A DNA stretch of 64,000 nt from Heterotrichella gracilis (lineage: Eukaryota > Sar > Xanthophyceae > Tribonematales > Xanthonemataceae), in the NCBI GenBank assembly GCA_032358255.1, contig JAULBX010001115.1, positions 1-64,000 on the forward strand. The letters run 5' to 3'. Of this stretch, positions 1 through 62,145 are shown piece by piece. The notes under the pieces are model-generated. The model made no database searches. It was not told the origin of the DNA and saw nothing but the letters and a program-made list of their open reading frames with translations. The translations under genes and the position numbers were made by a program. Each line of letters begins with the position of its first letter. Position 1 is the stretch's first letter.

Positions 1-3000
1 AACTAGTAAACCCCACTTTTGAAAAATCACAAACACCTGAGAAAGCGCTGTTGCCACCTCCAACTGGGATCCACAAATCAGTGCTTACTGTGGGCTTAAT
101 TACCAGTGACTTCCGAATGTTGCTGAGCATGCAATTAAATGGCACACTATCAGAGTATGGGGCAGGCACATGGCACTGCTCTGGAAGGCAACGATGGAAC
201 CCTACAAGGCACCCCTCTCTTCCAATCAGCATCCACACACCAAATGTGTCCCCCCACGCGTTGGCACGGTTGTAGGTAGCAAAGAACTGGCTGCTGAACA
301 TGGAGGCGTTGGCGGGCTGGGGGAAGGGCGCATTGGGGTCGTAGTTCTGGTTCCACGTGCAGCACACCCATAGCAGCATCTCCTTGGCTTTCTGCGCATG
401 GCTGAAGTCGTTTTCTATCAGGGCTGCAAACGCAAGCATGGCGGCGTGCGCCTCCGTGACATCCGCGCTGAAGCTGTCGCCGCCTGCGGAAGGGTGTGGG
501 CAAACCCTTGTTAGGGTATGGACATTGCCAAGTATTTACTAGGCTGTGGGCAAATCCTGACTAGATTGAGTGGAGCTAGGCGAAAATGCCAGGGAGGCGT
601 GTTGCAACATGACTCATTGCATGCAAACACTGCAGTACCATGGTAGGTGCACACATGGATGCGTGGCGTGGGTTTAAACCATATATTAAATATATAATAG
701 TATCAATCGATACGCTAGTAGAATGCAAATGGCTTGTAGGTGCTGTAATGTCACACAATGCCCACGCATCTTGCCTTACCGTTGTCTGACCACTTTGCCA
801 GGTTGGGAGTGCCGCTGCCCCCCAGGTACGCCCAGCTCCACGCGCTGTTTGACCTAGCTAGGGCCTGGTTCAGCGCCGACTTAAACCCTTGCTGGTACAT
901 GGGGTTGGAGGCGGAGGCCCATGTGCGCAGGGTGGGGAGCTGGGAGGCGGTGATGAGGAGGCGGGGGTGGGAGGAGACGGGGAAGGGGATAGGGGAGTCG
1001 GTCTTGTAGGAGGGGGCGAGGGTGTAGGTGGCGCCGGGGTCTGCGGGGGGGTTGGGAGGAACGGGTGTGTGAGATTCTCAGCAGGCCTCACAGTGTGGAA
1101 GGCGGGGAGGGAAATGCAGGAGGCCTCACAGTATAAGGCCATGTAGTGCACGTGATTTACAGAGATCCCTCAAGGAAACATCCCTCCCAGCGATTCCATG
1201 GTGCACACCACCTCGACTCACTTCTGGAGGTTACTGTGGTGTTGTAGTTGTACTTGTCACCGATGGTCAGGCCAGTGGTAGGTGCAGCAGTCCACATGTC
1301 AAACACCTGGCCGCCAGGGGGAGCATTGGCCACCACCACAGGGCTCTGCAGGTAGGGGGTGAACACCCCGGTAGGGTTTCCGTTCACGCTGCCGCCCACC
1401 ACGTTGATTGTGTATGTGGACACGTAGGAGCCGGGGGTGGAGGGTGCGCCCTGCGCCTGGATTGGGAAGGAAAAAATGCCATTGGCGAGTCATACCATGT
1501 GTACAATAATTGTAAGAATCCTTTTAAGGTCAATTCCAGGCATGTGTAGGCGTGGTCGATTTGATGCAAGTAATTTCATATGATCATGGCATTATTTCTT
1601 GCCAGTTCTGTTCCAAACAACCTGCTGCAATGCCATGCCACCATGGATCAATCACATGCGGACGCACCCTCTTTTGGTAGTTCTCTGTATACAGTTCCAG
1701 GGAAACATGTTGCATATGCATGTGACTAACTAACTACCTAACTATGTATATGGGTGCACATGCCACACTTGCCGGCATCAAGCTGATGTCAAAGCCAATA
1801 GTGGCCTAGCCTAAAAAGCATGTGCTATCACCCACCACATTGACGGTGATGTTGGTTGCGGTCCATGCTGTGAGGCCGCTGCTGTCCACCGCCTGTGCGC
1901 TGAGGGTGATTGCGCCAGGGGAGGATGCCACAAAGGACGCAGAATAGGGGATGGTGGTTGCGGTGGCGTACAGGACGCCATTCTGGTAGAACTTGACCTG
2001 TAGAACGGGGTGCGCGTCAGGATGGCAGTGGAGGTATGGAGCCAAGTCTCGATGGTGTCATCTATGAGCAGTGCTATGCCTATCATCGTTAGAATCAATG
2101 TAGTGTAATTGTGATTGGAATCGTTATAGAATTATGCCACTTGCCATGTCAGCTTCAGTGCAATGCATGTGAACACAAAAAGCCCAGTCACGTCATGCAT
2201 CGTACCAGGATACAATATTAATTGAGTATACCCACATGAGCACAAGTGCTCAAACAAGACATGTACACAGCTTCACCAGTACCCACTTGGTGAGCGTTAA
2301 ACCCTAATCCTAAACCCTAAACCCTAAACCCTCACCTGCGTCACGTTGCTGGCCAGGCCATAGGCCGCCACTGCTGGGCAATGGTGGCGGGGGTGGTGTA
2401 GGCAAAGGTGGTGGGGCTGGTGAAGTTGACCATGGGGGGGATGGGAGAGGCTGTGGGAGGGAACGGGGAGGAAAGCACAGGGGCTGTCAGGCAGGTGAGG
2501 GTGGCATGGGGTCCAGCAAGCTAGGGCGGCATTGTGAGGGGGCGCAAAACTGCATGGGCCAAATTGCATGGCAAACAGCACACAGCAGGATTTGTGCACG
2601 GAGTCGGTCACTGGTGGCTTTAACATATGCGACGCAGAGGAGAGAGAGGAATTGGCACGGCATATCAAGGACCCTTTCCGCTGAGGTGATGGTGTGCACA
2701 AGCTTCTAGTCTAGACGGTGCACATATGTAGATCTGCCTGACGCACCTGTCCCCGTGACCGTGATGGGCAGCCATGGTGCCAACAGCATGTTGCCGTCAT
2801 TGTCCTTGACATGGCAGACAGGAACCAGGAGCCAGGAGGGGCGCTGTACCAGACAAAGGTGTAGGTGGAACCTGCAGGGGAGGGAAGAGGGAGCTTGACG
2901 GTGATGGGCTGATGAACAGGCATGTACCTACATGCGTCATCCGCTCACCCATGCGCACCATATGGACAGCGACTAAACAATGAGTATAAAAGGCAGGCCT

Positions 3001-3345
3001 CCTGGCTAACTGCACTGCTGCAGTGAGTAGCAATCTTTGATAGGGTTGCATGCTGTGATAGGACATGCACAATGGGCCATGGCAATTGTATATGGGCCAT
3101 GCTATTCATGCAGCATCTCCTGCAGTGCTTATCCCCCACCAGGTGCATTGCCCATCCCATTGGCCTGGCACCGTAATCCGCACACAACACACAACACTGG
3201 GGTGCCACTGCCTTCCTTCCTACCTGAAGCAGTGGCCACCCCCAGCTTGCACCCCTTGGCGCCCGTGGCGTTGGATGCTGATGCAAACACGTCCACGGCG
3301 GTGATGGAGCCCCCGTTGGTACCGCCGGAGTCAGCTGCCCCAGGC
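1..3345 (-). CDS. Secreted polysaccharide lyase-like protein with Ig-like repeats (partial)
   Basis: The exons I can join, in transcript order, are 3345-3224, about 2879-2745, about 2450-2336, 1997-1836, 1456-1222, 1040-780 and 483-206. The protein continues past the left edge and its N-terminal exon was not found. Exons 1-5 encode Ig-like repeats: VKFYQNG and SAQAVDSSG are typical of the bacterial-type Ig modules found on glycosidases and lyases. The 1040-780 exon reads HPRLLITASQLPTLRTW, and the next carries an alpha-helical stretch with EAHAAMLAFAALI and VCCTWNQNYD. Both resemble the N-terminal (alpha/alpha) toroid of heparinase II/III and alginate-lyase families. The role is inferred to be extracellular breakdown or remodelling of uronic-acid polysaccharides. 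Two exons (near 2380 and 2810) change frame inside clear Ig repeats, each at a C run, so either the assembly lost one base twice or the gene is decaying. The family is moderately sure; the exact substrate is unknown. Confidence 0.55.
2298..2335. repeat. Interstitial telomere-like repeat at a splice donor
   Basis: Several copies of the plant-type telomere unit CCCTAAA, some imperfect, lie immediately inside an intron of the polysaccharide-lyase-like gene. Read on the minus strand, the donor GTGAGGGT runs straight into TTTAGGG repeats. Similar short motifs recur next to splice sites throughout the window. Confidence 0.85.
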
Positions 3346-5380
3346 CTGTAGGGTTGTTGGGGTTATGCGAAGGGGGGTGGGTGGTGGTGGGTGGCCAGGG
3401 TGGGTGGGCCTTTGAATGGAAAATTAAACCTTTAGATTCAATTTAATTGATGGAAATATACACATGAATGGCATTATCCCACGCATCATCCCGCATGGCG
3501 TCATGTTATTGTGTGCACATGTGATCAATGCACTGGTCAGTGTTGCATCAACCCTAACAGAGGCCCCATCGGTGCCTGGGTCTTTAGTGGCGCGGGGCCA
3601 CACAGCGTGCGCACCTGTAGTGTGACGGGGCTATATGTGCATTATATATATATAATGCACATATGTTGACAGTGTTGAGCAATGCGTGCACTTGCATGGT
3701 GTACGTTGTGGATGGCAATATCGACTTTGGTGGCGGCTGATGCCTTCTCGGGTTCGTCCCCAAAATTACGCGTCTCGCGTAGGGCTTTACCTTTTTTTTT
3801 GACTCACGATTGTCACATGTTGACACCCTAGCTAGGTTGTGGACCTGTGGTCAATGCCGGACTGTTCCAGTACAAGATGACTCTGAACGTACTGCAAGTT
3901 TCAGGTGTCAGAGTGCTTGTATAAGGTAGAGCAGGACTTGTTGGTAATAGGTACAAGTTGAATTTCCGTCCACAACTCGGGTAAAGGGCATAGGTTACTC
4001 GAGCACGCGGCGCGCGGTGATACGAGCAGTTGGCAGGGAAACGGCTGCTTTACAAGGCCCACCACTACCTACTGATTGTATAAATCTTGTAAGCTGATCG
4101 TTGCCCTTGTCAAACTTGGACGCGGAAAGCTATCAACCATGGAAAAGCGTTGGCATGCTGTGGGCATGCGTGCCTGATAGGTCGATCACTCCAAGAACGT
4201 CGCACCAAAAGTGGTTGATGCACGATGAGAAGAACATGCGACCTTCAAACCACCCTCCTGTCTATTCTGCAGATAGGTCACGCAAACCCACAGGCGGCAA
4301 CAACCCACCTGCTACCTGGATGTACCCCGCCCTGATGGTACCAGTGGAAGGTGACGCCGTGTCTGAAAGGTGAAGGCTCCTTATCTGCTTGCGACTTTCC
4401 AAACTGTGCATGTAAATGTGAAAGGAACAATGCTTCGATGGAACAACGCTAGTCGTGTCAACTGAAGGTGGGGAGAGCTTCAGCTAGGTCACCAGCGAGG
4501 TGACGAGACGTTGTGAAGTGCACTGGAATGCCCTCGAACCCACAGCCCATCGTGACAGGCACCGAGGCAGGGAAGCTGTGAAAGACACCAAGTCTCTCCT
4601 TGCAGTGGATTTTGTACGCCCGGTACCTGAGCTGCTCACGACAAGACCACTGCTCGAGGCAGGTCTACGGCAATTTGGCAGGCACTGCTTTTGCCTCGGC
4701 AGGTGAGCTGGTCTCGGCAGGCCTCTCGTGATCAGCCGCTGATGATCTGTTGTGATCAAGATATTGTAATCCAATACCCATTTCGGAGTTTGGATCAGTC
4801 ATCATAACTCATTTGTTGCCATTGGCCTTGGTACACTGCCAGTTGGCCGTGCCAATTGGCCTTCGAGCGTTTTGCTATATGCATGCATAAGGCGGTGATG
4901 CATATGGTGGGCATAAGGGTTCTATTCCTTCCTTTCTCCTTCTTAGACGACTTTGTGTATCCTGGTGGGCTTTCCCTTGGTACCCAAATAGTGAAAATTA
5001 TTACAGCTGTGCTCTCACGTAGACAACAAGAGCTACTAATGCGCAGATGATGTTTTGAGCACTTCCAACTCACTCGATAGACCCCTGGTATGGAGGACGG
5101 TTGTTGACTTCAGTAGCCTGCTACATTAACCTGTCAGACAGCTTGCTGCCCTAGGCACGCCAAGCTGCTTTGCCTGCCCCGGTCAATGTTACCGTGCATG
5201 CGGTTATCCCGCCACTGCACTGCTGCGGCACAAAGACACGGGCTGGCGAGGATAGGGGCGGCAAGGCCAGCATACATAAATACTCAGCGGGGTTTTAAAT
5301 ATCAGCCAGGGCTCGTGGTGGGGCTGTGGGGAGCGTCACAGCCGAGCACCGCTCCCAGCCACACCCGCTTGCAGGCTTCC
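3346..5380. other. Intergenic region between divergent genes
   Basis: No ORF here has a recognisable domain or convincing splice context. The stretch should hold the missing 5' exon and promoter of the minus-strand lyase-like gene and the promoter of the plus-strand Nudix gene. An AT-rich near-palindrome of TGCATTATATATA type lies at about 3637-3663. ORFs at 4101-4373 and 4484-4774 look like chance. Confidence 0.5.
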
Positions 5381-7746
5381 ATGGTCGCTGTGCTGCTGCC
5401 AGCCGCCGCGTTGCAACAGGTGTGTGCTGTGGTGTTCTGCAGCTCACTAAACTGTGGAGTGCATCGGGCAAGCTGGGACATATGAATGCATATATGCATG
5501 CACACTCACTCTGTTCTTGGGTACCCTCTTGCCCTTAGGTACCTACAACCGAAAGGGAATGGGCAGTGATGCTCTGTACTCCCTGGTATTCCCTTTTTTC
5601 TATCACATGTGCAGTACAGCCAACCAGCTGCTGATCCCCAACCACCTGCTGCAGCCGAGGGCCGCCCACCACCACCACCACCACCACCACCACCACCACC
5701 CTGCTGCCACCCACCACTACCACCACCCTACCAGGGGCAGCAGCCGGCGCACCATGGTGACCGCCGCAGGGAGTGGCACGGAGGGCGCTGCGCCTGCCAC
5801 GGTAGGGTTTTGGGATAAGGTCGGCAAAACCCTGCGCACACCATACCAAATTCGCTAGGGGCTCTTAGACCTGGCATGCGTGCCTGGGGGCGGGAAGGAG
5901 TTGGGTTGAGAGCAGCAGGGTGTGGTGCAATAAGGCACTCCAGCGCTGCCCATACAAGTGACACTCCAATATCACCTAGGCGAACCGCTGCTTGTGCACC
6001 CCCTGCATGTGAGCCCCTGGTGATATACTATGCGCGTCCCGAGGCACGACTGTGGGCGTGACCTGGGAATTATGGGAAAGCTGCTGCACCCATCAGCCAT
6101 GGCATCGCCCTTGCACGCATGCAACCTTTGGCCCTCCCTGCGACATACCTCTGCACCTGTGACCACCCACCTGCGCTACCTCCACTAGGTAACCACACCA
6201 CCCGCTACCCCCTCCACCTCCACCGGCCCCTTCTGCCGGCGGTGCGGCAGCCCAATGACCGAGAGCGTGCCACCTGGCGATGACAAGCCGCGCGCAACCT
6301 GCGGCGCGTGTGGCTACATCGATTACATCAATCCCAAAATGGTGCGGGCATGCGGGTGGGGGCGTAGGGGTGGCAGGTACCTGTTGCCTTGCTGGTAGAT
6401 CACGTTCAGGCTGCTGTTGGCTGCCCATGGAGCGATGGGACCCTGTGGAATGTGCTCTGTAGCTGTGGTCATGTTCATCATCAAAGAAGCACTTGTGCAA
6501 GCGTTCATCACTGTAAGCATATGCGCCACCTGTCATCATTTCCCCATCCTGCGCAGGTGGTTGGTTGCATAGTGGAGCATGAGGGGAAGGTGCTGCTGTG
6601 CCGCAGGGCCATAGACCCCTGCCGGGGGCTGTGGACAGTGCCAGCGGGCTACATGGAGCTCAAGGAGTCATCAGCAGGTGAGGGCGGGGCTAGGGTTCTG
6701 CTAGGGTGTCAGCAGGCTACATGGGGCCATTGGCAGGTTACGGTGAGGCTAGGTGTTTGCTAGGGTACCAGCAGTTGCCCAGGCATATCATCTGTTGATC
6801 CACTCCCAGTGCCACTCCCACCCTGATCTGCACCTCTCTTGGCAACTAGGTTGCAGGAGCTTACCTGACCATACATACTTATACTGCATCCCTCCTTGCA
6901 GAGGGAGCTGCCAGGGAGACGCTGGAGGAGGCAAACGCAAGGGTGGAGATAATGGGGCCCTATGCGCATTTCGACATCCCCGCTATTGGCCAGGCCTACA
7001 TCCTGTTCCGCGGCCACCTGGCGGCCCCTTTCACCTTCTCACCGGGGAATGAGACGCTTGAGGCAGAGCTGTTTGCACCCCATGAGATCCCCTTCAATGA
7101 GGTAGGGTGTAGGGTTTAGGGTGTGCACCGCATGGGATTCCCTTCGATGAGGTAGGCGGTGGGCAGCAGCAAAAGTGCATGCATGTGGATAGTTTGGAAG
7201 CTAGGGTTAAGGGCTTGCCTGTGTGAGGTGCCAGGAGTGGTACATGTGGTCTTACGCATGCGATGTGGAGCATGCGCCGGTGCGAAATCACTACATGTGG
7301 TTTGGGCTAGCAGGCATGAGGCTGCCATCAAGGGCCCAGCCATGTTCCATGCTGCGAAACCTTCAAAATTGTGCCTTTGGTTCACCCCTCAACCTCACAA
7401 TTGTTTTGGATAAAGAATACCAGCACATGCTTCTTTTGCAAGTCCCTTTACCTCACTGCTCCTCCTCTATATGGCTGCCACAGCACATCAAATCTGTGTT
7501 AACCTTCCATAAACAAATGTGCACCCCTAACCGCGCTGCCATCTCCTCCCCGCCTCCCAGATCGCCTTCTCCTCCGTCTCTCTTGCGCTGCGCATGTACC
7601 TGGCAGATGTGCAGGCGGGCAGGTTCCGCATGCACCACGCAGTCATCCACAAGCAGGCGGGGGCGGGGCCAAACGACCCTGCGGCGTTCACCCTGCGGGA
7701 CCACTTCTCGCTAGATACTAGCGATGTGCCGCTGGCAAGAGAATAG
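5381..7746 (+). CDS. Nudix FAD pyrophosphohydrolase, NUDT23-like
   Basis: Exons 5381-5419, 5655-5801, 6189-6341, 6557-6677, 6902-7101 and 7561-7746 join in frame to 281 residues, close to Arabidopsis NUDX23. That enzyme splits FAD to FMN and AMP in the chloroplast. A zinc ribbon (C78, C81, C100, C103; CRRCG and CGACGY) precedes the Nudix fold, as in NUDX23. The Nudix box begins at G144 (GYMELKE) and continues across the exon junction as AARETLEEANA, so the usual Gly near its end is Asn. The last four exons are firm. The first two are inferred from phase and encode a short leader plus a run of 11 His before the ribbon, an unusual composition for a transit peptide. Introns 2, 4 and 5 begin with or contain TAGGGTTT-like sequence, and two exon ends are re-copied just inside the intron. 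Confidence 0.88.
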
Positions 7747-10168: not shown

Positions 10169-10916
10169 GGCGGGTGGCGGGGCTGGCGCTCAGGCGCGCC
10201 GTGAGGGGTGCTGCTCCCTAAGGGGGCGTTGCATCGGTTGCCTGCAAGGGGCGGGGAGGTGGGTGGGAGGGCGTGCATGCAAGGGCTGTTGGTGGGTGGC
10301 AGTGACTGCCACTGGGCTAGGAGGAGAGTATGGAGGACCATGGTCGACCAGGGCAGTTTTGCAATTGACAGGTCAACTTGGAGTGCGTTGGAAGACCCTT
10401 TATAAACCTGAGACCAGAAATTCTTCCCGCCTGGAGAGGAAGCTCGAGCACAGTGCTGTGCATACGGTAGTGTGGTGGTGCGGGACAACAGGACAACAGG
10501 GTACGCGATGGCGAGACCACAGCTGTTGTCAACGCCAGGCAGCACAGACAGCCACGCGGCGTCATAACGTACCTTGTGTGGTTGGCTACCGCTTCTCTGT
10601 TGTTGCTACTACCGCAGTGCTTGTAGTCTCGTCATGATGCATGCATGCATATGCAATTGCCTCGTCACCGCATAGCCGCAAAAAGTGACGCGCTGTCACA
10701 ACGAAATACTCTTGCACTCTTACACTAAGTGCTGGGGAATACCAATGAACTGTGTATACGCGTGGTTGGAATGCACTGCAACACTGGACTGTTACAAAGG
10801 ACTTGTGCAGGGGACTCTCGGAAGAGGGGTCGTGACACGGGACGGTTCGGCAACTTTCACAAAAGTGTTCCTGAAGTCAAGATAGGCGTTAGGAGTAACT
10901 GGCGACCGAACTCTTA
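10169..10916. other. Upstream region of the ZIP gene
   Basis: Noncoding as far as I can see; it should hold the ZIP promoter and 5' UTR. Plus-strand ORFs that run into it from 9924 or 10208 are antisense shadows of the ZIP coding region. A run of alternating ATGC/GCAT palindromes lies near 10636-10652. Confidence 0.45.
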
Positions 10917-11156
10917 GGGGCGATTCGCGTTGAGATTTCGCCATATTCGTATGCTGGCATATGGTAAAGGCGAAATTTGGCTTTATGGTGGCATATGCCA
11001 CAGAGTGACTCTGCCTGCCTGCTGCTTGTTTCGAAAGTTCGAGTTCAAACTGGTACGAGCTGTCAGCGTATTGTCAATAGCAGTTATTCTGCTGCATTGG
11101 GCAGTTGTTTACTGCATTGGGCAGTTGTTTAGCCTTACGTTATCCGCCTGCATGCA

Positions 11157-11468
11157 TTGCTTTGCGCAGCCATGGATCCAAACAGCCTTTGCCAGCTCCT
11201 TGGCATGGTAGCACTTGTGGTGCAGCTAGTTGGTGACGAACGTCCCTTGGAACTCGAAACTATAAGCCTGGTGCTTGACATATCGTGCATGCATATCGTG
11301 GCTGGGGCTACAGCAAAGCAGCTGGACTTGCAGGAAAGGATGCTTGCCCATCAGCAGGCAATGGCGACTTTCACCATGCAGCAGGAGGGGCTGAAGGTGG
11401 CTGCCCTTGCATCAATTGCGAGTGCATTTACCAAGATGGCAGATACAATGGCAAACGGTAACCCTTGA
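11157..11468 (+). CDS. Transposon accessory ORF sharing the transposase N-terminus
   Basis: A 103-residue frame in the left arm of the Harbinger element. Its first 49 residues equal the transposase N-terminus because they lie in the inverted repeat. Then it switches to QLDLQERMLAHQQAMATF and a helical Ala/Met-rich tail. That tail resembles the C-terminal coiled coil of the Myb/trihelix-like second protein that many PIF/Harbinger elements carry. The DNA-binding part is missing, so this is probably the remnant of the partner gene fused by rearrangement to a copied transposase start. Whether it is translated is unknown. Confidence 0.5.
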   Translation: MLCAAMDPNSLCQLLGMVALVVQLVGDERPLELETISLVLDISCMHIVAGATAKQLDLQERMLAHQQAMATFTMQQEGLKVAALASIASAFTKMADTMANGNP

Positions 11469-11580
11469 GGTGGTGGTGCAGCAGATGGGGGGTGCAGCAG
11501 GTGTTAGTGCAGCGCAGCCATGTTCAATCAGTGCTAGCTATGGTGAAGTTGTGGCACTACTCGTGGCTTGTGATCTCACC

Positions 11581-12867
11581 TCAAGGGGACTGTTCCTGTT
11601 GTGTTGCAAACAGCCTCTTCAACGCTCTTTGTATTGATGCCCCACCCGCATTGCTTGACGCCCCAACCCCAGTGCTGTATGTGTTGCTGTGCAAGCCATC
11701 CTCCTGCACCATGTTTTGAGCCATGCCCTCCTCGGTGTAGCAGCTTGGGTCCACAGGCTCCTTGAAATCAAGCTGAATGTTGTGTAATATGACGCAAGCA
11801 AGCACCACCTTTGGGACAAAGTCCACCTTGTGGCGCACCACGTCCAACAAAATCCTCCACACACCCTTCAACCGGCCAAAAGAACGCTCCACAACCATCC
11901 TACAGCTAGACAGCCTGAAGTTGTACCTGGCCTCATCCCCATCCCGCACAACTAGCAAAGGAGTGACCAACCATGGCAGCAAGGGGTATCCACTGTCCCC
12001 AATTATGTATGGCCCAAACACTGCACCAGACCACCGCTGCCTGCGGCCTTGCAAGATCAACTTCTGATCCACCAAGTTCTTAAACTCGCTGCAGCTCAGT
12101 ATACGTGCGTCATGGCATGACCCAGGCATGCCAATGAAAACATCTAGGAAACGCACGTTGACATCGACAATGGCTTGCATCACCACCGAGTACCTAAACT
12201 TCCTGTCAAAATAGTCTGTACCCCACATGCCAGAAAAAGGCTTGTCAATAATGAAGTGGGTGAAGTCAACAGCCCCTGCCACATTGGGCAACTTATTCTT
12301 GTCATAAAAGCCTTTCACCACCACTTGCAGCTTATCAGGAGTGTTAGGATAGTGTACCACATACCCTAGCACATCACATATAGCTGTCACTGTCTGGTAA
12401 AAGGTTTCGCAGCACGTACTTTTACCACACCCAAACCTGTCCCCTATCAGTTCCCAAGAAATGCCATGGGCCAAACGGTGCAGGGTGATGGCTATCTTTT
12501 TATCCACTGCCAGCCCACAATTTGCATTGCAACCCACACTGGCTAGCACAGGGCCCAGCTTGACCACAAGAAAGTCAAACACAGTCCTTGACACTCGAAA
12601 ATGGGCCCTCCACCTATCCTCGTTGTACTGTGTTGCTGCAAAGTCCTCGAACCAGCGCCCATACCTAGGGTGAACAAGGTCCTCGCCTATGCATCGCTGG
12701 CTGTCCAAAGCAGTAGCAGCAGCCACGATATGCATGCACGATATGTCAAGCACCAGGCTTATAGTTTCGAGTTCCAAGGGACGTTCGTCACCAACTAGCT
12801 GCACCACAAGTGCTACCATGCCAAGGAGCTGGCAAAGGCTGTTTGGATCCATGGCTGCGCAAAGCAA
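11581..12867 (-). CDS. PIF/Harbinger DDE transposase
   Basis: An intact 428-residue frame (DDE_Tnp_4-type nuclease) that would cut the element's ends and join them to target DNA. The three expected acidic motifs are present: D201 in GAVDFTH, D291 in IIGDSGY and E327 in VVERSFGRLKG. The family's PGSCHDARIL stretch (about 248-257) is also there. The region before it, around GISWELIGDRFGCGKSTC (135-152), looks like the helix-turn-helix found in this family. Translation may start at residue 1 or at Met6 (12852). The first 50 residues lie inside the right inverted repeat, so the same peptide start is encoded again, inverted, at the left end. No breaks are seen. Confidence 0.93.
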   Translation of the reverse strand: MLCAAMDPNSLCQLLGMVALVVQLVGDERPLELETISLVLDISCMHIVAAATALDSQRCIGEDLVHPRYGRWFEDFAATQYNEDRWRAHFRVSRTVFDFLVVKLGPVLASVGCNANCGLAVDKKIAITLHRLAHGISWELIGDRFGCGKSTCCETFYQTVTAICDVLGYVVHYPNTPDKLQVVVKGFYDKNKLPNVAGAVDFTHFIIDKPFSGMWGTDYFDRKFRYSVVMQAIVDVNVRFLDVFIGMPGSCHDARILSCSEFKNLVDQKLILQGRRQRWSGAVFGPYIIGDSGYPLLPWLVTPLLVVRDGDEARYNFRLSSCRMVVERSFGRLKGVWRILLDVVRHKVDFVPKVVLACVILHNIQLDFKEPVDPSCYTEEGMAQNMVQEDGLHSNTYSTGVGASSNAGGASIQRALKRLFATQQEQSP

Positions 12868-13107
12868 TGCATGCAGGCGGATAACGTAAGGCTAAACAAC
12901 TGCCCAATGCAGTAAACAACTGCCCAATGCAGCAGAATAACTGCTATTGACAATACGCTGACAGCTCGTACCAGTTTGAACTCGAACTTTCGAAACAAGC
13001 AGCAGGCAGGCAGAGTCACGCTGTGGCATATGCCACCATAAAGCCAAATTTCGCCGTTACCATATGCCAGCATACGAATATGGCGATATCTCAACGCGAA
13101 TCGCCCC

Positions 13108-13711
13108 TAAGGCTATGACTTCCACTGTGCCATGCCCGCCGGTGCGTCCCGCCACCGAACCACCGACCACCCTTTGCCGCCGAACCGCCGCCATACCAAC
13201 TCCACTGCCTGGCGCCACACCTGCAATAAAAAAATTTGCCAAAAGTTTTCGGGTTCGTTGAAGGCCAGTCCGCAGCAACAAATCGACACTGTAGGCTCTA
13301 GCACACTCTGCTTCGGCCGTTGAAAGCTTGCTCGCACGGTTGAGGCACACTTGCGCGGTACACAGCTGTCTGCCCGAGCCCACTTGACCTCACAGGGTGT
13401 CGCTGGTGCTTATGCTCGTTGCACCGACGCTCTTTCAGTGCACGTTTGCTTTACAAGACTTGTTTTCATCGTTTACTGCAAGAATTTTGCCGGCAAAGCG
13501 ACGTTGTCAACACAGTCCCCGCCACAGTAGCGTGGGTTGACAGCTTGCAGCACAGGTGCCCGGTTGGCGGCAGGGCTTGGCAGGGAGCAGCTGCGGGACT
13601 ATTCCCCCAGCACAGCCTGCATACTAGGGCGAAAATAAGCCAATTTAGCTACCTGGGCGTGGCCCTTACCAAACCCCTCGTTTATCTTGGCACCGCTGCC
13701 GAGCTGCCACA
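13108..13711. promoter_or_regulatory. Probable promoter region of the RLP24-like gene
   Basis: The 600 bp between the transposon end and the RLP24 start codon hold no recognisable coding sequence. The right transposon end lies only about 600 bp upstream of the ribosome-biogenesis gene. No TATA box is obvious close to the start. Confidence 0.35.
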
Positions 13712-14813
13712 ATGCGTTTGGAGAAGTGCTGGTTCTGTTCCAGCACGGTGTATCCAGGCCACGGCATAACCTTCGTGAGAAATGACTCCTCGGTAGGTTG
13801 CAGCTTGCAACTGCATACAACGACGTGTACTGTCTGATGTGGTGCTCCTCCCTGCTATGCATGCATATGGCCAGCGGGGGACGTCGGCACCTGACAGCAG
13901 CCCCCACACAGCTCCAGCATGCAAGTGATACTGTATCATATCGAGACCGTGTCCTACTGTGTCATAAAACCCCATGCAACTGACACACAACCCTCTTGTC
14001 CTGGCCGCATTGCACCTGCCGCACCCGCTCCCGCACACCCTCCTTCGCACCCCTGCTTGCCACGCCAATGCTTGCCTACCACTCCACCGCTTCTCCCTCC
14101 AGGTGTTCAACTTCTGCCGGTCCAAGTGTCACAAGAACTTTAAGATGAAGCGCAACCCGCGCAAGGTGCGGTGGACAAAGGCATACCGCAAGCTGGCGGG
14201 CAAGGAGCTGGCAGAGGTGAGGACACAGCATGTGAACCCTAAAACCTAAACCCACTGCAAGCTGCGGGCAAATAGCTGGAACCATATCAGGCACACCTGC
14301 ATCTCACCTGCGCCCTTTGAAGGTCCAACAACGTATTCTCTGGTGTCATATTCACACCGCAGCCATAACATTTACTCGACCCTGCAACAAAAGTGAGCAG
14401 CGCCTCGGGGGCTCACCTCAGCAGCACGCCTTGCAGTGCGCGTGGTCCACGGCCCTGCCCACCCCCTTAGCACTCACCGCCACCCTGCTCAAACCCCTTC
14501 TCCCCGCCCCCAGGACGCCACCTTTGAGATGGAGCGGCAGCGCAACCGGCCCGAGAAGTACGACCGCACCCTGGTCACACGCACCGTGGCCACCATGAAG
14601 AAGGTGGACAGGCTGCGGGTGGCGCGCCAGGCGAGGTTCGACGGGGAGCGCAAGCGCCGCGCCACGCGCGCGCTGCAGGCCGCCGAGCGGCGCCAGCTGG
14701 AGCAGGAGATCCACCTGGTCAAGGCGCCAGTGGCACAGGCGGCGGAGGCGGCGGCGGCGCGCGAGAAGGTGGCTGCCGGGGAGGCGGTGCAGGAGGACAG
14801 GATGGTGGAGTAG
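13712..14813 (+). CDS. Ribosome biogenesis protein RLP24 (L24e family)
   Basis: Three exons, 13712-13792, 14103-14216 and 14514-14813, join in phase 0 to 164 residues. RLP24 sits on pre-60S particles in the nucleolus, recruits the AAA ATPase Drg1/Rix7-type remodeller, and is exchanged for ribosomal protein L24 in the cytoplasm. The N-terminus [18 protein letters not shown] is the L24e signature; C6, C9, C32 and C36 form the zinc site. After the L24e domain comes [12 protein letters not shown], which marks RLP24 rather than L24 itself, then a long basic helix and an Ala/Glu-rich tail. Just after the exon 2 donor the intron holds CCCTAAAACCTAAACCC and then a degenerate re-copy of the exon end. 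Confidence 0.95.
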
Positions 14814-15552
14814 GGGGGAGGGGTGCCGGTGGTGTGGGATTTGGGTGGGTCGGGGGGGTGTATGGGTGCGGCGGGAGTGGGAGACTGGTTTGCAGAGGTT
14901 GTGCACGTTGGCTGTGGAGGGGAGGATCAGTACATCTTCAGCAGTGCTCCGTTTATTGTTGGGTATGGGTATGGGTTTGGGCATGGGTGCCGGGTTGCTG
15001 CGATCAGGGGTTGTGCTGGTGTGGAACTAGAGCGTGGTCCATTTCATCAGTGGCAAGGTGCTTTGCTTGCTGCTATAGTGTCGCCAGCTTGTGTGGTGTG
15101 CCAACAGGTTTGTGTGCAAAGTGCAAAAAAGTACGCAACAGGTGGTGTCAGAATATCTGGTGCGGTATATGCAAACAAATACTACAGAAGAGGTGAACTT
15201 GGGAAAGTGTTGCTGCGGTCACTGCCGGTGTTGCTTGGCTGGTGGGCTGCCTGCGCCCCAGTTGGTGCTTGTCATGTTCAAGAATTTGCTGTAAAACACA
15301 CGAGGCATGATCTGGCCACAGCGCTGCTTCAAGTTGAAGGTACCGCATGTACTGTGTCCCCGGGCCATGGAACTCCCGTTGAGAGGGACTGTGCCCTGTC
15401 CAAAGGCAGGGTCACACACGAGGAGGCGCACTAGAGGTCTTGACATACTGTGGATATTACTAAAACTCAAGTTGGTTCCCAGCATCTGAGCTGGCGGGTA
15501 TGCCAGCCCTGGTGGACCACTCATCTGGGAGCCCTGGAAAAAAGGGGCAAAA
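14814..15552. other. Intergenic region, RLP24 3' side
   Basis: This holds the RLP24 3' UTR and then noncoding DNA up to the tRNA locus. Long frames here (14823-15434 +, 15219-15944 -) have no protein-like features. Confidence 0.4.
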
Positions 15553-15577
15553 GGGTTGCGCCGGCCGGGAATCGAAG
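15553..15577 (-). repeat. Duplicated 3' end of the tRNA-Gly gene
   Basis: About 25 bp covering the tRNA's acceptor 3' strand and part of its T arm, plus its flank AAAAGGG, are repeated about 43 bp downstream of the functional gene on the tRNA strand. The match ends at the T loop. It looks like a local tandem duplication, and it fits the pattern of edge duplications seen at exons in this window. Confidence 0.8.
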
Positions 15578-15595
15578 GGGGGCGGGCAAAAGGGT

Positions 15596-15667
15596 TGCGC
15601 CGGCCGGGAATCGAACCCGGGTCAATTGCTTGGAAGGCAACTATCCTAACCATTGGACTACCGGCGC
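15596..15667 (-). tRNA. tRNA-Gly (anticodon TCC)
   Basis: On the minus strand a 72-nt cloverleaf is clear. The acceptor stem is GCGCCGG paired with CCGGCGC plus discriminator A. The D arm is AGTCCAATGGTTAGGA. The anticodon arm reads TTGCC-TTCCAAG-GCAA with anticodon TCC. The T arm is CCCGGGTTCGATTCCCGGC. There is no intron and no encoded CCA. It decodes GGA and GGR glycine codons. A T-rich terminator for RNA polymerase III was not obvious on its 3' side (plus-strand positions below 15596). Confidence 0.95.
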
Positions 15668-32988: not shown

Positions 32989-33169
32989 CAGGACTTAGCC
33001 AAAGCATGCATTTGAACCATTGAAATGGAGACCATCCTTGCTATACGCTTGCTGCTATGGAAGCCACTACTAGTTTTCTTCACCCAAAGTGGAACCAGAG
33101 GGGTGTGGAAAGTGGTACAGCAAGACATGTACTGTAGACAGCAGACAGAAGCAAGGCGTGCCACTGTAC

Positions 33170-34500: not shown

Positions 34501-34780
34501 AGGCAGAACCTCTTCCGTATCAGCTGTTGGTGCAGCGCTGTGTTCACTCTGCTGTACTAAAAGGCAAACTGGCGAAAAAGCAGCAACTGGACGACCGTTT
34601 CGGACTTCCGTTTATGTGCACCCAGCTTCAGTAGTTGCCAGAGTTGCACGCTGCAGATCAAGTTGTCTATTGGATCCTGAAAGCCATGCTGATGCCGCTT
34701 AGCTTATCTCTTTGACAGCCAGCTGCCTGGTCCCTGCATCTATTGCCTTTAAGAACGCTGTCCACATAAATCTCCACTTA

Positions 34781-38628: not shown

Positions 38629-51435
<12,807 letters not shown>

Positions 51436-53366: not shown

Positions 53367-53423
53367 CCAGCTCAGCGCACAGACCAGTCTTCACCTAGCT
53401 GGTAAACATCTCAAGCAGCAACA

Positions 53424-55229: not shown

Positions 55230-58200
55230 TCACCCCGAGAGCCGCTCCCTCTCCAAAAACCTGGTCACCAGGTCATAGGCCTCCCTTGGTCGGGTCTGAG
55301 GCACCATGTGGCCCGCCCCCCGCACGGTGGCAAAGGCAAGCCCCTCGTACTCGACCACGTAGCCGCCCACCTGAACACAGGGGAAATAATCAACAGTTTT
55401 GTGCGGCACAGGCGCATGCAGTGATGGCATAGCAAGGATGCTCTGCACATGTGGCCTCAGGCTGGCACACTCGCAGCTTTCAAAAGCATGCACCATTGCT
55501 TGAAATGCGCATGCACTGGCAGGGGCAGGGGCGCAAGCATGGTTCGCAGGTGAGGCGTACCGGTACAATTGGCTACTGGTATCCCCTATATCTACCTCAT
55601 TATTTATATGAAAATTCATACTGAATTATATGAAGTATTTATATCAATACAGTATTTATATGAATACTGTATTTCAGAGCACAGCATGATACACAGCACA
55701 ATTCCATGCACAGCTGCCGACACTCACGGCAACACAACCACAGCAGTAATGGGTGATTTATAAAATTATATAAATCATCCCATCATGGTTGCAACCAGAC
55801 TTCATGCGTGTACACCCCTGCCCCACCCCCCACCCCAACTTGGAACCCTAAACCCTAATCACCCCCGCCCCACCCCCACCTGCTCCCCGTTCTCGTGGTC
55901 CTGCACAAACCACGGCCCCCACGCCTGCTCCACCCGCAGGTCCAGGCTGGCGGTCCAGCTCTCGCTGCCCGTGTGGGGCACGCACATATCGTGGTCGCCG
56001 CTGTAGATCAGCGCACGCAGGCCCGCGCGGCGCACAAGGTGGTCGTGCAGGGGGAGGGCGGAGGGGAGGTCATGGGTGTAGTGGATGCGGTCCGAGCACT
56101 CGTCAAAGCGCCCAGCCACAGACATGGGGTGGGCGCCGATGGCTGCGCGCACCTCGTCGTCGTTGCAGAATGCCCACATCTCCCTGCACACCGAGTTGGA
56201 GTTTAGGGTGTAGGGTTCCAGGTTTGGACAATGCTTGTAGGTGGGTGCAGGATTTCCTTCCTTATAGGGATTGAGGTTTCTGAGATTGCACCACATGGGG
56301 TTCATATGACTGTTGAATGACCCCATGCATGTGGGGCCAGTAGGTGGCGCGACCAGCCGCCACGGGGTGACAATCACACGCACAGGACTGGGCAGGGGTG
56401 TGCATCACCAGCAGCCCCATGCCGACAACAGCATGTACAAATGCACAGCAGCATATGCGAGGCCATTCGTACTCCATCCGCCCCTCACCTTGAGTTCAGG
56501 CATGCTGGTGTGTGGCCCAGCTGCCCACCCCCTAGCATCTGGGGCCACGTGGGCACCGGGCCCGGACCCTGCAGGTGGCGCAGGGGCCACCCCACATCCT
56601 CCCCTTCTTGTGCCGCAGCCAGCGCCACCCTTGCCCCCCCGCTGGAGTGGTAGCAGGGCGACAGGATGTCGTACAGGTTCAGGCCCTGGAGGGTGGTGTG
56701 GAGGTGGGAGAGGAGGTGGGCGCAGTGGGAGCCTGCAAGGGGGGATGGGAGCCACTGGTGGGTCAAGGAGGGGGGACACGCATGTTCATCCCTTCCCTCA
56801 TGTGCTGATCATTAAATGCCAACCATGATGAGTTGCCAGGATACCAACGAGGTCATTGCAATTGCTGCTGCCTGCCCACCAGCAAAGTGCAGCAAACATG
56901 CGCGAATGCGTGTGTAAACTGGTGCCATGTGCCCTGGAAAAAAATATGCCAGTGCTTGAATACAATGCATCTACCTCACACAATGCATTGTAGGTTTGAA
57001 GTGCTGCGCGCGAGGCATGGCAGCGTTGTGTCCCTACCTCTCTCTGCATTCCAGTACTCCCCCCTGCATGCCTCCTCCAGCTGCGAGTACTGGTGCGTGT
57101 CAATGAGCGCCTTGCCGTACGCAAACAGGGGCAGCGCGTTGCCGTCATGCCGCGGGTCGCACACACCGTTGCCAACAAGGTAGCCCTGCAGGGCAGGGGA
57201 AAGGGCGCCATGGTTCAGGTTAAGTGTTGCACAGGTGGGCAATGGAGGTAGGCAACCAACGCTACTGCACCACTTAGCAGCAATGTCGTATGCATGAGTG
57301 GTGCCAGAAGGCAATGACGGATGCTCCTCCTTGCCACCACTTTACTCCAAAACAAACCTTGACGCCACCGTGACCTCCCGCCAATCCCATGTACAGCCTG
57401 CAGATAAGCCACGTTGCACCCCCCGTATGTCTTTCCTCACCTTGATGTTCACTCTGGGTCGCCTGCCATCCTCATTGGCCGCCACCAAATGCGCTGCTAG
57501 GTTGGGCACATAGATGCCGGCATAGCTCTCACCTGTACATACACATAACCACATCAACACATGACCACACCCGCATGGCCATTCCGATCACATGCTCATA
57601 GCCGATGTGGTGCATGTGGCCTTGCATGGTTGGCGCTGTGATAATTGCAGCAGCACCACCGCGTGTGCTGCATGCCATAGTGGTGACAACGAGCAATGAG
57701 GCTTGAGTATGCTGCATGCTTCATTGTTACATGCCAATGGCAATGGCATGGCATGCATGACAACCTGGCGCCTGCACAGAACTCAATGTATTGGTCATAT
57801 TCCACATGGCCAGGTCCCACAAGCGCACCTGCTATGTAGAAGTCGTTCTCCGCAAACTCGCTGTACTCCTCGAAAAACTGCCGCAGGAACTCCTGAGCAT
57901 CCAGTGCAGTCTGGGTGTCGTTGGTGTGGTAGTCAGAAGGGGAGTCAGAGTATGACATGCCCACCCCCGAGGGGGAGTCTAGGTAGATTACATTAGCCAC
58001 CCTGCTCCAGCTGTGCTCGTTCAGGGTGAGGATGAGGTTGTTGCGGGTGGGAATGTGCGTGTCGCTGCGGTTGGCAAACCGCATGTCGAACGGGCCTGGG
58101 TGAGGGGGGCAAGGGAAGGGGGTGGTTGGATGCAATGCAGGAATGTGGTTGACTGTGTGTGCCGGTGCATGTATGCAATGCACAGGCGTGGGCATGCAAC

Positions 58201-58911
58201 CATTGGCGTACAATGACCAGCAGCAGCGTGGCGGTGGGCAGAGGCGGTGAGAGCGCTCCACTAACACTGGCGTGAGGCGCATACAATCATGCCCCCCATG
58301 CTGACCAGGCACGCAGCACGCATCCCCTCACCGGTGTGGCATTGCGTGCCTGGGAATGCAAAGCAAGCCTGGGCATTCGGCTTAGACTAGTCTGCAGGAG
58401 GACCAGCAGTGTCGCGCACTCCAGGTACCCAGTGGCATGAGTGTCAGAGAGCAAGGTGCAGTTGTGCATGCCCCCAGCTGGTGGGCCACCCCTCACCGTG
58501 CTCATACACAAACCCTAAAACGTACACCCTATACCCCTCACCGTGCTCATACACAAAGCCATCGAAGGAGCTGCAACCAGGGCCGCCGTTGAGCCACAGC
58601 ACCACAGGGTCCCTGCGTGGGGACCGCTGCGAGGTCACAAAGTAGTAGTACAGCTTCTTGCCGCTGTCTGGGTCTACCGTGAGGTAGCCGCCGTACTGGC
58701 GTGACGGCAGGCGGCCGGAGAAGCCGGGGACGGAGGTGATTTGGGCATGTGCATGGGACCGTACTGCGGCAGGTGCCTCTGGCCAGAGCGTGCCAAAGAC
58801 GTTGGATAGGAAGGCCGCGGGGTTAGGCAGGGCGTGTGAGAGGTGGCAAGACGATAGGAGTGTCAATAGGGTGAGTGCTGCGAGGCTGGAGGGGGGCTGG
58901 CGTCGCTGCAT
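55230..58911 (-). CDS. Serine carboxypeptidase (peptidase family S10)
   Basis: Seven exons in transcript order: 58911-58542, 58095-57829, 57532-57441, 57185-57038, 56732-56489, 56183-55880 and 55370-55230. Phases close to give 521 residues. S10 enzymes remove C-terminal residues in vacuoles or the secretory path; some plant members are acyltransferases. The first 27 residues are a signal peptide (SLAALTLLTLLSSCHLSHA). The oxyanion motif LNGGPGCSS is at 108-115. The catalytic Ser is in GESYAG (S215), split across an intron. IYSGDHDMCVP (about 433-443) carries the catalytic Asp and GAGHMVP holds H496. All triad motifs are intact, so it should be active. The exon 1 donor end is copied again about 44 bp into the intron, around a CCCTAAAA spacer. 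Confidence 0.95.
58494..58552. repeat. Duplicated exon 1 donor edge in the carboxypeptidase gene
   Basis: The string CCTCACCGTGCTCATACACA occurs at about 58495-58514 and again at about 58537-58556. The upper copy is the true exon 1 end. The lower copy, inside the intron, keeps the GTGAGG donor. Between them lies AACCCTAAAA. Confidence 0.9.
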
Positions 58912-59507
58912 GGCAAGTGGCAAGTGTCGGGAAGGCGGGAGATGTGCTGGTGGCTGGGTGGGGCAGGAGGGATGCCTGGGTCACGCCGAAGCTAGCTTGG
59001 CATGCAACGGCCTTGGTAACAGTGCTGGGTACGGGGTAGTGCGTGGGCTGATCCAGTTATGCGCTGGATGAGCGCACATTGTGCGTTGAAAGCGCTTTGC
59101 TGCAGCCGTGCTGACTCGATGCCAGCTTCAAAGGTGCAGCCCGCACAATCTGCCAGTGCGTCCCCACAATGGCATCCCCCATCCCAAGGATGCAGGTCGG
59201 AAAACATTTCATTCTTTTCCGGCGAAAATGGCGCGGAATTTCGAACCGCTTTTCGAAAGGAGGTTATCCGCTTTTACAAAGGCACACCTGCCCCGCTGGT
59301 TTGCAACTTAAGCAACAGTCGGACCAGTCGAAGGCGCTCCTGTGTGATCCTGATCCTGGGCGGTTATTGGGCGAGTCATAGATTTAGATCCCTCGACATG
59401 TCACTTGGTCAAGGTCGTAGTCCCAGCTGTCTGGCTGCACTACCGGGGCGACAAGCAAAACACATAATACAAACTCCTCGGTTGTTTCGTCTATTGCAAG
59501 CGGAAGC
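58912..59507. promoter_or_regulatory. Divergent promoter region, carboxypeptidase (-) and RNase M5 (+)
   Basis: About 600 bp between two start codons, without recognisable coding sequence. Confidence 0.4.
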
Positions 59508-62145
59508 ATGACGGCCAGCCACACGACTGCCAACGCTGCTGCACGGCACTGGTCAGGACACTCGGGACATATTCCCCACAGCTGGAGACGTGCACCAGGG
59601 GGCCTCCCAGCCCAATTAGGACGTCAACGGGGATGCTTCAGCCGCAGATCAGCCGGTATACTCAACCTGTCGAGACAGGCGGGCAGCCAGCAGCGGGGAG
59701 GGCCACCCAGCGCTGACGCTGGTCTTGAACGAGGGCTTCAACGTTCCTCCCCTTCCCGAGCACACGAGAATCTATTGGCCAATACTACACCTTCCTCACC
59801 TCTAAGTCAGACCAAGGGGAGCTCAACAGCACGCGGCAGCCAGCAAGCTACGCACACGGCAGCTCCCAGCGACCTGCACATGCCATGTGCAAGGGAGTCA
59901 GCTCACGCCAGGCCCCCTGCCCCCCACCAGCCACAGCAGCCCCCCTCCACTGCCGGGAGCAACCAAATCCCCAGCCTCGCCATCCAGCTTGACACTGGCA
60001 ACCGGGGCCACATCACCCTTCTGGCAGACCCATATGCCCACACTGCACCCGCCCACACCCCACCTGGCCAAGGCCACCAGCGGCGCAAGCCCTGGCTGGC
60101 CTCGCCCAAGGGGGAGCATATTACTCGCCAGTGCGGCACGCGCGTGTACCGGCCGCAGTTTGCCGGCCTGGACGTGGCGCAGGCGTATGACGCCCGCCTG
60201 CCGCTGGTGCCTGGGGTGGTGGTGGTGGAGGGGGAGAACGACCTGAGGGCGGTGCGGCAGGCGGTCAACGCAACGGTGCGCGCCCAACACGCACCACTGG
60301 CATAGAGCCAGACAGGCCCAACAGTCCAATTGTCATGCTCATCACCTTGTGTTACCCCTCCTTGTCCATACCATGCCATTAATCCATGCACCCCCCACAT
60401 CCCCCCGTCTGCACCACATCCACCCCCACCTCCACCCTGCCTTTCTCCGCAGGTGTTTGTCCTAGGTGGGGGTGGCCGCTTCCGCCCCGACCACGAGCTG
60501 GTGCTGCGCCTGGCGGCCGCCGCGGCATGCCATGGCGCACCCACCCTGCTCACCGACCCCGACCCCGCGGGCTGCCTCATGCGCCACCACCTGGACGCCA
60601 TATTTGGGCCATGCAGCCACGCATTCCTGCCGGCGCACCACTGCAGGGCTGCAAGGTCCAAGCGGCCGGGGAGGCTGGTGGAGGTGGGTGGGGCAGGGGG
60701 AGGGGGGGGTGGGTGGGGGTGCTAGAGCACATTGTGGCAAAGGTTTCATGTGGCGAGCATTTCATGTGGCGAGGGTGGTGACAGTGATGCTAGTGATGTG
60801 TCTATGGAGTTGGTTTTTTCCATGCTGCCTGGCGTTGCTCATCTATCTGGTGGCGCTGCGCGCCTTTGGCCGCTCATGGCGCAGTACGTGATTGCCCTCT
60901 GCACCCACCGCAGGTTGGCGTGGAGCACGGGTGTCCCGCAGCCATCCGCACCGCGCTGGCCCTGCGCCGCCGCTCCCACCCGCACCGCCGCGTGTGGGAC
61001 ACGTCCGACCTGCACTCGATGGGGCTCATGGGGGCAAGGCATGGCAGGTGGCTAGGAAGGTGCGCGGGGGGCCATTGCTGGGTGTCGACTGGATGATGTG
61101 TGTGGAGTGGGGCGTGCTGTATGGGCTACTATCCAGTCAACATTGTATTAGGGGATAGTGGCTGATAGTAGTATGAATTATTGGATGATAGAAGTATGGG
61201 CTACTATCCAGTCACCATTGTATTAGTGGATCCAGTGGGGCGTGCTGTATAGGCTACTGTCCAGTCGTAGCTAGGGAACAAATTGCCTGCCGGGGCGGCG
61301 TCATGCGGCACTCGCGCGTCTGCCCATCGGCACCATGCCTACCTGCACCCCCTGGCGGTCCCTGACTGCTGCCTACCCCCGTTCAGGTGCCACCTTCGCT
61401 TCCTGCTTGGCGCTGTGCTTGGCCTGGGTGTGGTGATGGAGCACACGCACCTGCTGGACTACCTTAACAGGTGGGGGGGGGCGATGGAACAGCCCTCGTT
61501 GCATTCCATTAACTGTCAATAAAAATATCATTTTTATCTTTTTCCAATAATAACATTACAAGTACATATGCTACATGCACCCTCCCCGCCCTCGCCGTGC
61601 GCCGAGGTACTGCTTCTCCTCCAGGTCCTGGTGCACATAGAAATGTCACACTTATTGTATACTTTTTTAATTAATTTCTTTCAAGTAATTCTTCACATAC
61701 TTTTTTAAAACAGCCAAGCGGACCTAGCTTGCGTCCAGGTATAAATAGTAATATAAAAAATTACTACTACTATTACATTGGGCCAACGCGCCACCGCCCT
61801 CACCTCCATCCCCCCTCAAACCCCACTCCTTCCCTCCCTCCCAGGTACTGCTTCTCCTCCAGCGAGGTGCGCTCCGCCGCCGACTACGTGCGCACACACA
61901 CAGACCCGCTCATGGACTACCTGCTCATGTCAGCAAAGGTGAGGGGCCAGCTGCCGCCCACGCTGCTGCAGGGCCTGGAGGACAGCTGTAGGGGGAGGGG
62001 GGGCGCGGTGGTGGGGGGAGGGGGCATGGGGCGAGTGCGGGCAGGGGAGGTGGGGAATGTGGTGGCGTTCAGGAGGGGGGCGGGGGGGGCGCCGCAGGGT
62101 GGGGTGGCGGATGGGGTCATCAAGGAGCGAGGAGCCGGCGTGTAG
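59508..62145 (+). CDS. RNase M5-like 5S rRNA maturase, plastid-type
   Basis: Exons 59508-60275, 60453-60683, 60914-61047, 61387-61470 and 61845-62145 join to 505 residues. Bacterial RNase M5 (RnmV) trims 5S rRNA precursors; here the likely substrate is chloroplast 5S rRNA. The first 230 residues are Ser/Ala/Arg-rich and low in acidic residues, as in a long transit peptide plus linker. The Toprim domain has VVVVEGENDL (E241) and LLTDPDPAG (D291, D293). The RNase M5-specific part follows: HAFLPA, VGVEHGCPAAIRTAL, DLHSMGLMGARHGR, RFLLGAVLGLG and LLDYLNRYCFS. A 100-residue C-terminal extension becomes Gly-rich after about 455. The family is bacterial in origin, so gene transfer, probably from the plastid ancestor or another bacterium, is inferred. 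The first Met of the open frame was taken as start. Confidence 0.86.
61109..61266. repeat. Three-copy repeat in an RNase M5 intron
   Basis: The string GGGCTACTATCCAGTCA followed by ACATTGTATTAG (or CCATTGTATTAG) occurs at about 61131-61150 and 61199-61225. A third, shorter copy (AGGCTACTGTCCAGTC) ends at about 61266. GTGGGGCGTGCTGTAT precedes copies one and three. Confidence 0.85.
61603..61625 (+). repeat. Copy of the RNase M5 exon 5 acceptor edge
   Basis: AGGTACTGCTTCTCCTCCAG here matches the true start of exon 5 at 61843-61862, including its AG. It lies 240 bp upstream in the same intron and would be a decoy acceptor. Confidence 0.85.

Follow-up and report, generated by a model that had tools for sequence, protein, structure and literature searches.

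Telomere-like tracts and duplicated exon edges at predicted intron borders of Heterotrichella gracilis

Exon edges and their copies in the adjoining introns

The stretch under study comprises the first 64,000 nucleotides of contig JAULBX010001115.1 of the alga Heterotrichella gracilis (assembly GCA_032358255.1) and is called the window below. Among its genes are those for a Nudix protein, RLP24, a FAD oxidoreductase, SMC3, a carboxypeptidase and RNase M5. In these and many other genes an exon edge with its splice site (X) is found a second time within the adjoining intron (X′), often with a tract of telomere-like repeats, TTTAGGG (G-type) or CCCTAAA (C-type), between the two copies. The original prediction had pointed to such copies at seven places. 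A blind scan with a fixed threshold detected 51 of them in 348 introns, 29 at donors and 22 at acceptors, compared with 2.2 per scan when the edges were swapped; the phenomenon is thus real and wider than first noted.

The sequence analysed amounts to 264 kb, namely the window (contig C14:1-64000) and C2:1-200000, from a genome of 68.5 Mb in 903 contigs. An extra sample of 20 one-kb loci on 19 other contigs was chosen by the sole criterion of an exact 21-base telomere repeat. Genes were predicted with our own two-strand hidden Markov model (HMM) gene finder trained on the analysed sequence, which gave 55 genes with 354 introns and 76.6 kb of coding sequence. The model reproduces the exon ends noted earlier in the Nudix (6677 and 7101), RLP24 (14216), FAD oxidoreductase (17359), SMC3, carboxypeptidase and RNase M5 genes. 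A Pfam search with four spliced proteins returned the domains NUDIX, Ribosomal_L24e, Peptidase_S10 and Orn_Arg_deC. In the carboxypeptidase the edge-copy junction (residue 123) falls within the matched domain, as do three such junctions of a decarboxylase encoded on C2 (residues 138, 246 and 286). The Nudix exon 2 junction (residue 153, counted by hand) lies inside the matched domain, and the junctions of RLP24 (residue 56) and Nudix exon 3 (residue 220) lie at the domain end or just beyond it. The copies and tracts at the window loci are the following.

2298..2336, − strand: telomere-like tract CAGGTGAGGGTTTAGGGTTTAGGG, flush at the predicted donor of exon 2336-2450 (− strand)
6638..6677, + strand: Nudix exon 2 end, first copy (repeat family D8, 75% over 55 bp)
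6706..6774, + strand: Nudix exon 2 end and intron start, intronic copy preceded by a TAGGG spacer (D8; missed by the blind scan)
7071..7106, + strand: first copy X of the Nudix exon 3 end, donor included, 36 bp, about 81-86% identical to its copy; exon end at 7101
7103..7122, + strand: telomere-like tract TAGGGTGTAGGGTTTAGGGT between the Nudix exon 3 copies
7121..7156, + strand: Nudix exon 3 end, intronic copy X′ with intact GT
14185..14211, + strand: RLP24 exon 2 end, first copy
14235..14253, + strand: telomere-like tract AACCCTAAAACCTAAACCC in the RLP24 intron
14254..14279, + strand: RLP24 exon 2 end, intronic copy
41812..41866, − strand: start of the next SMC3 exon, copy taken as exon (repeat family D3 and HMM)
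41863..42199, − strand: SMC3 exon-start array of three decaying copies (41924-41978, 42033-42087, 42145-42199)
41863-41922, 41976-42025 and 42090-42134, − strand: telomere-like tracts separating the SMC3 array copies
42205..42240, − strand: SMC3 exon end, intronic copy with intact donor (repeat family D12 and blind scan)
42280..42315, − strand: SMC3 exon end with donor, first copy (D12 and blind scan)
58488..58515, − strand: carboxypeptidase exon 1 end, intronic copy, 96% identical (repeat family D16 and blind scan)
58510..58536, − strand: telomere-like tract between the carboxypeptidase copies
58534..58560, − strand: first copy of the carboxypeptidase exon 1 end, donor included (D16 and blind scan)
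61602..61624, + strand: RNase M5 exon 5 start, intronic copy, with a spacer that holds no scored telomere-like tract (blind scan)
61840..61862, + strand: acceptor and start of RNase M5 exon 5, the copy treated as exonic

Five of the seven cases named initially were recovered by the blind scan: Nudix exon 3, RLP24, the SMC3 exon 21 end and exon 22 start, carboxypeptidase exon 1 and RNase M5 exon 5. The Nudix exon 2 copy escaped the scan and was recovered by repeat tools; the copy in the FAD oxidoreductase gene is visible by eye but stays below every threshold. The genome search with the Nudix and SMC3 regions returned the window itself alone, with no second genomic copy. In the SMC3 array the motif CTCCAG precedes the copy taken as exon and two of the three other copies. 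Two 30-bp mini-exons (41938-41967 and 42047-42076) are predicted inside the intronic SMC3 edge copies; they may be copy artefacts or real alternative micro-exons.

The comparison of exon edges with control segments, which the original prediction had proposed, confirmed the excess in the 264 kb. At a Smith–Waterman (SW) score of at least 13, the exon ends recurred in the adjoining intron in 18 and the exon starts in 15 of the 167 introns flanked by long exons. No exon middle did so, far exon ends and reverse complements yielded 0-1 each, and searches in other introns gave 3/831 and 0/831. Random intron segments were found again in their own intron in 7/144 cases at this score and in 2/144 at a score of at least 14, at which 16/167 exon ends and 10/167 exon starts still recur. 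The repeats are local: at distances of 20-320 bp, 21 matches scoring at least 14 were obtained in the window and 128 in C2 (overlaps possible), compared with 1 and 0 at 1020-1320 bp and 0 and 9 at 3020-3320 bp.

At donors, X mostly begins at exon position −20..−80 and ends at intron position +1..+34, with a median length of 46 bp (29 pairs); at acceptors it extends mostly from −41..+3 to +22..+97, with a median of 64.5 bp (22 pairs). As regards the spread of decoy splice sites that was initially suggested, the splice dinucleotide is preserved in the copy in 30 of the 44 scorable pairs. Identity is higher the nearer the copy lies (rho −0.38, p 0.006), as is expected if new copies arise beside the exon. 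A detectable copy is present in 48/354 introns. These introns are longer than the others (350.5 vs 268.5 bp, p 0.0015), although long introns also give more room for a match; by length class, copies occur in 2/63 introns of 60-149 bp, then in 6/75, 16/95 and 19/74, and in 5/41 introns of at least 500 bp.

Number, position and surroundings of the telomere-like tracts

The exact repeat (CCCTAAA)3 occurs at 834 places in the genome, compared with 0 for the reversed pattern; some of these places may be true chromosome ends, as contig C70 starts with such repeats. In the 264 kb, 72 tracts were scored, of which 66 lie in predicted introns, 6 in predicted intergenic DNA and none in exons, these compartments holding 44, 27 and 29% of the bases, respectively. 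At least one tract is present in 54/354 introns. Intergenic DNA has a telomere-hexamer density equal to the background of shuffled units (2.05 and 2.35 vs a mean of 2.08 per kb), with untranslated regions unannotated.

The intronic tracts are concentrated at the intron borders. Within 20 bp of a border lie 36 of the 66, where 13.2 are expected; among the 194 best-supported introns the number is 22/42, and 5000 simulation runs gave a mean of 5.2 and a maximum of 13. This preference does not come from the constraint on exons, since the tract itself is non-coding. Enrichment of the telomere motif near donors had been proposed as a test, and it is seen genome-wide: within 30 bp of the donor-like sequence CAGGTGAG, a tract is located downstream in 303 cases (123 C-type, 180 G-type) and upstream in 66 (28 and 38), with 0-1 for reversed controls, overlapping repeats being counted more than once in these numbers. 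Hexamers enriched in the donor zone relative to the intron interior include, within the top 22, TAGGGT (36 vs 7.7), AACCCT (32 vs 6.7) and TAAACC (16 vs 2.4), beside plain G-runs. As to the statement that many introns begin with TAGGG, at least two hexamers are present at +3..+45 in 33/295 introns for the G-type and in 21/295 for the C-type; just 9 exact matches to CAGGTGAGGGTTTAGGG were counted in the genome.

Many tracts lie between direct repeats. In a set of 90 tracts, in which a few are counted twice as the loci L005 and L006 overlap, the two flanks align to each other at an SW score of at least 12 in 38 cases, whereas swapped flanks do so in 1.6% and random positions in 7.3%. The same was found for 11 of the 20 new loci, against 4/380 with swapped flanks. 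By site, the tract is enclosed by repeats in 7/11 cases for C-type at donors, 5/14 for G-type at donors, 11/16 for C-type at acceptors and 0/1 for G-type at acceptors. X often adjoins the tract, with distances of at most 12 bp on both sides in 30 of 61 duplicated tracts and of at most 1 bp in 13. At locus L002 (about 2150-2550), repeated copies of an exon that reads as KH-domain-like were observed with telomere-like tracts between the copies.

Tracts and edge copies are associated. The spacer holds at least two telomere hexamers in 19 of the 51 edge pairs, compared with 11.5% at matched positions in copy-free introns. The proposed link between copies and telomere-like spacers is therefore real, but such a spacer is not the rule outside the window. 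Donor-side tracts accompany 9/25 donor copies and 17/228 introns without them (p 2e-4); for acceptor copies and acceptor-side tracts the values are 4/18 and 11/235 (p 0.015). Duplications that span a tract are found at exon edges in 12/39 cases, within introns in 4/22, in intergenic DNA in 0/14, within exons in 0/7 and in the remaining classes in 1/6.

A preference for exon borders, as originally suggested, holds for the telomere-like tracts; young duplications in general do not show it. Among all 88 local duplications the edge class is in excess (39 observed vs 26.4 expected; intron 22 vs 23.5, intergenic 14 vs 21.7, exon-exon 7 vs 11.5), as would be expected where only the intron copy is free to decay. 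Young duplications of at least 90% identity are of the exon-intron junction type in 9/34 cases, with 9.0 expected at random. Targeting of all local duplications to exon borders is not supported by the young ones.

Three other features were observed. At 10913-13111 the window contains a unit resembling a DNA transposon, whose inverted arms (10913-11314 and 12710-13111) are 402 bp long and 99% complementary; its predicted protein matches DDE_Tnp_4, and the unit is presumably of the PIF/Harbinger type. A tRNA gene (15596-15667, − strand) has its low-coordinate end within a 32-bp exact repeat with copies at 15545-15576 and 15584-15615, 39 bp apart. On C2, a 101-bp coding-like piece (121116-121216), presumably adenylate-kinase-like, is repeated 178 bp away with about 94% identity and is a possible duplicated or alternative exon.

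Origin of the duplicated edges and tracts

The arrangement X-tract-X′ matches the products of fill-in and joining of staggered ends, telomere inserts at breaks are known from mammals, and we therefore read the loci as scars of break repair with telomere-like filler. With moderate confidence we regard insertion footprints of break repair as the best explanation. A break staggered by about 20-100 nt at the exon-intron border would leave overhangs, and their fill-in on both sides would duplicate the overhang X, that is, the exon edge, the splice site and a few intron bases. Telomere-like DNA, scored here as 13-65 bp in either orientation, would be added to the ends or captured there, and end joining would then give X-tract-X′. 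The outer copy would continue to be spliced, and the copy located in the intron would be neutral and decay. Repeated events at one border could produce arrays such as that of SMC3 and longer introns. Candidate causes of breaks at borders are exon-edge chromatin and transcription-linked R-loops. Telomerase may be the source of the filler, as 3′ overhangs serve as its substrates; capture of telomere fragments is the alternative. A repair process of this kind was among the initial proposals and it fits well, with 38/90 tracts and 11/20 new loci between repeats and direct duplications of tens of base pairs adjoining the insert, as fill-in would leave them.

The alternative that survives best, although we consider it unlikely, is ordinary growth of tandem repeats, in which slippage or unequal exchange copied an edge segment that already carried a tract, and what is left of the decayed unit now mimics a spacer. 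Arrays do exist, with a 112-bp unit in SMC3 and a 53-bp unit at C2:4612-4808. Some genome-wide matches of donor plus tract stand in close tandem pairs (contigs C75, C12, C125, C225 and C211), and further telomere hexamers are present on an outer side in 15/34 tract pairs. Also in its favour, the spacer recurs outside the pair in 7/47 cases at an SW score of at least 12 (control 0.7%) and in 19/47 at the looser score of at least 9 (control 11%). In tandem growth, however, the spacer should be repeated with every copy, and at the stricter score 40/47 pairs, young ones included, have a spacer without detectable recurrence. A minisatellite-like structure is thus limited to a minority of loci, of which SMC3 is the clearest. 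Polymerase slippage alone, which had been offered as one possible cause, does not explain the spacer. Tandem growth also leaves unexplained why tracts are placed at intron borders in both orientations.

The tracts could also be selected splicing elements, G-runs after donors and branch-point-like CTAAAC or C-rich tracts before acceptors, with the duplications arising independently; we judge this improbable. The tract types match the G-rich donor side (31% G) and the C-rich acceptor side (38% C) of the introns, and G-runs unrelated to telomere repeats are enriched after donors as well. The C-type sequence CCCTAAACCC is found genome-wide within 30 bp of CTGCAGG 480 times upstream and 213 times downstream; as CTGCAG is a palindrome, many of the 187 G-type places counted upstream coincide with those 213. 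Within 20 bp of acceptors 13 C-type and no G-type tracts were observed, and one G-type tract lies within 30 bp. Selection can account for this absence, because G-type repeats carry AG, which is excluded just upstream of acceptors (0.56 vs 4.8 per 100 nt). At donors, however, the C-type is about as common as the G-type (11 and 12 tracts within 20 bp), which argues for insertion and not for a selected signal, and most of these C-type tracts (7/11) are enclosed by direct repeats.

An origin from a mobile element or a retroelement that ends in telomere-like sequence (introner-like or telomere-attaching) and leaves target-site duplications is quite improbable. The insert is flanked by direct repeats and gene interiors are preferred, but beyond the telomere-like tract no common sequence was found among the inserts, and the length of the duplication varies widely from one tract locus to another. 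No introner family emerged when the 354 introns were compared all against all; of 22 matches at E<=1e-6, the 15 listed have the look of adjacent paralogues or of a single dispersed repeat. Pairing of G-type donor and C-type acceptor ends as the inverted repeats of one element was likewise rejected, with 3 such introns against 2.8 expected. Gain of whole introns from tract plus one copy, by AGGT tandem duplication or birth at a staggered break, is very improbable. One in-register candidate (C2:34371-34630, score 15.9, CCAG|GTGC at both ends) may be a gain by tandem duplication, but 15/282 introns score at least 11 with 2 of these in register within 3 bp, the same rate as with swapped introns (8/1684), and most introns reach far past the copies inside them.

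Several observations weigh against break repair with telomere-like filler at intron borders. Random positions inside the 20 new loci are enclosed by direct repeats in 14.4% of cases, so that their neighbourhood is repeat-rich anyway. Tracts away from borders also lie between repeats (interior 9/24, intergenic 1/6), G-type donor tracts do so in just 5/14, and in 32/51 edge pairs the spacer holds at most one telomere hexamer. The cross-control is positive as well: donor copies are associated with tracts near the opposite border of the intron (5/25 vs 10/228, p 0.01), and the link between tracts and copies thus partly reflects heterogeneity among genes, some introns being rich in both. Tract counts are uneven along the contig, and on inspection by eye even the youngest pairs seem to have imperfect tracts. 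No clear telomere overlap on the primer side was seen in 30 near-flush cases inspected by eye (0-4 bases, mostly 0, on either side). The genome searched contains no second copy of the Nudix and SMC3 regions that could serve as an empty site, and all exon-intron borders are HMM predictions without RNA support.

It is possible, and we propose this only tentatively, that these footprints come from a recurrent process aimed at exon-intron borders, in which telomere repeats of either orientation heal the breaks, a copy of the exon edge enters the intron and telomere-type DNA feeds intron growth and new splice-site material. An example of the latter is the predicted gene at C2:181242-181521, with an acceptor inside telomere-like filler. 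Telomere-like inserts at borders look like a way for introns to grow.

Comparison with known systems

Among mammalian interstitial telomeric sequences inserted at double-strand breaks, 4.6% in rodents and 16% in primates are accompanied by duplications, and about half by deletions (PMC2246262). The H. gracilis tracts resemble them as telomere repeats inside internal DNA, sometimes with target-site duplications, but differ in the share found between repeats (42%, 38/90, and 55%, 11/20), in duplications of tens of base pairs and in the clustering at intron borders. In mouse cells, CST-Pol alpha gives rise to tandem duplications at breaks whose 3′ overhangs measure 43 and 50 nt, and human cells were also tested (PMC8355091). 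The size range of the duplications is alike, as are the fill-in and end joining proposed here, and CST is also the telomere fill-in complex; unlike here, neither telomere filler nor a focus on intron borders is described in the text consulted.

Direct repeats in Daphnia introns are likewise read as scars of staggered breaks that lengthen introns and were reported for 61.1% of new introns (PMC4202315). There the repeats shared with exons are 4-12 bp long and belong to newly gained introns, and the main text does not contain the word stem telomer. Direct repeats near splice sites of 4-30 bp (mean 11.4) were compared between the two borders of an intron and interpreted as insertion scars (PMC11782384). 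These too are located at intron borders, but in H. gracilis both copies are at one end of the intron, often with a telomere-like spacer between them.

Plant telo boxes are single telomere units found across genes, in Arabidopsis genes more often in introns 1 and 2, and their authors propose the action of telomerase on free 3′ ends (PMC3022908). They differ in their concentration in the 5′ untranslated regions of Arabidopsis and rice; in Arabidopsis they are not enriched in introns overall (150.7/Mb vs 155.2/Mb in the genome), and flanking exon-edge duplications are not among the features described in the text consulted. The Auxenochlorella genome paper was rejected as a precedent, as its term 'interstitial' refers to loss of heterozygosity (PMC12633428).

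Among the open-access papers listed by the searches, none describes in its title or abstract opening telomere-like inserts combined with duplicated exon edges at the borders of introns. The components are known; within the reach of these searches, the combination and its location are new. Should the break-repair interpretation be true, gene structure would be tied to telomere maintenance and break repair, and the order of insertion could be read directly from related strains. The lengthening of introns and changes at their borders have mostly been inferred from rare events, whereas in H. gracilis many footprints of graded age are found in one genome.

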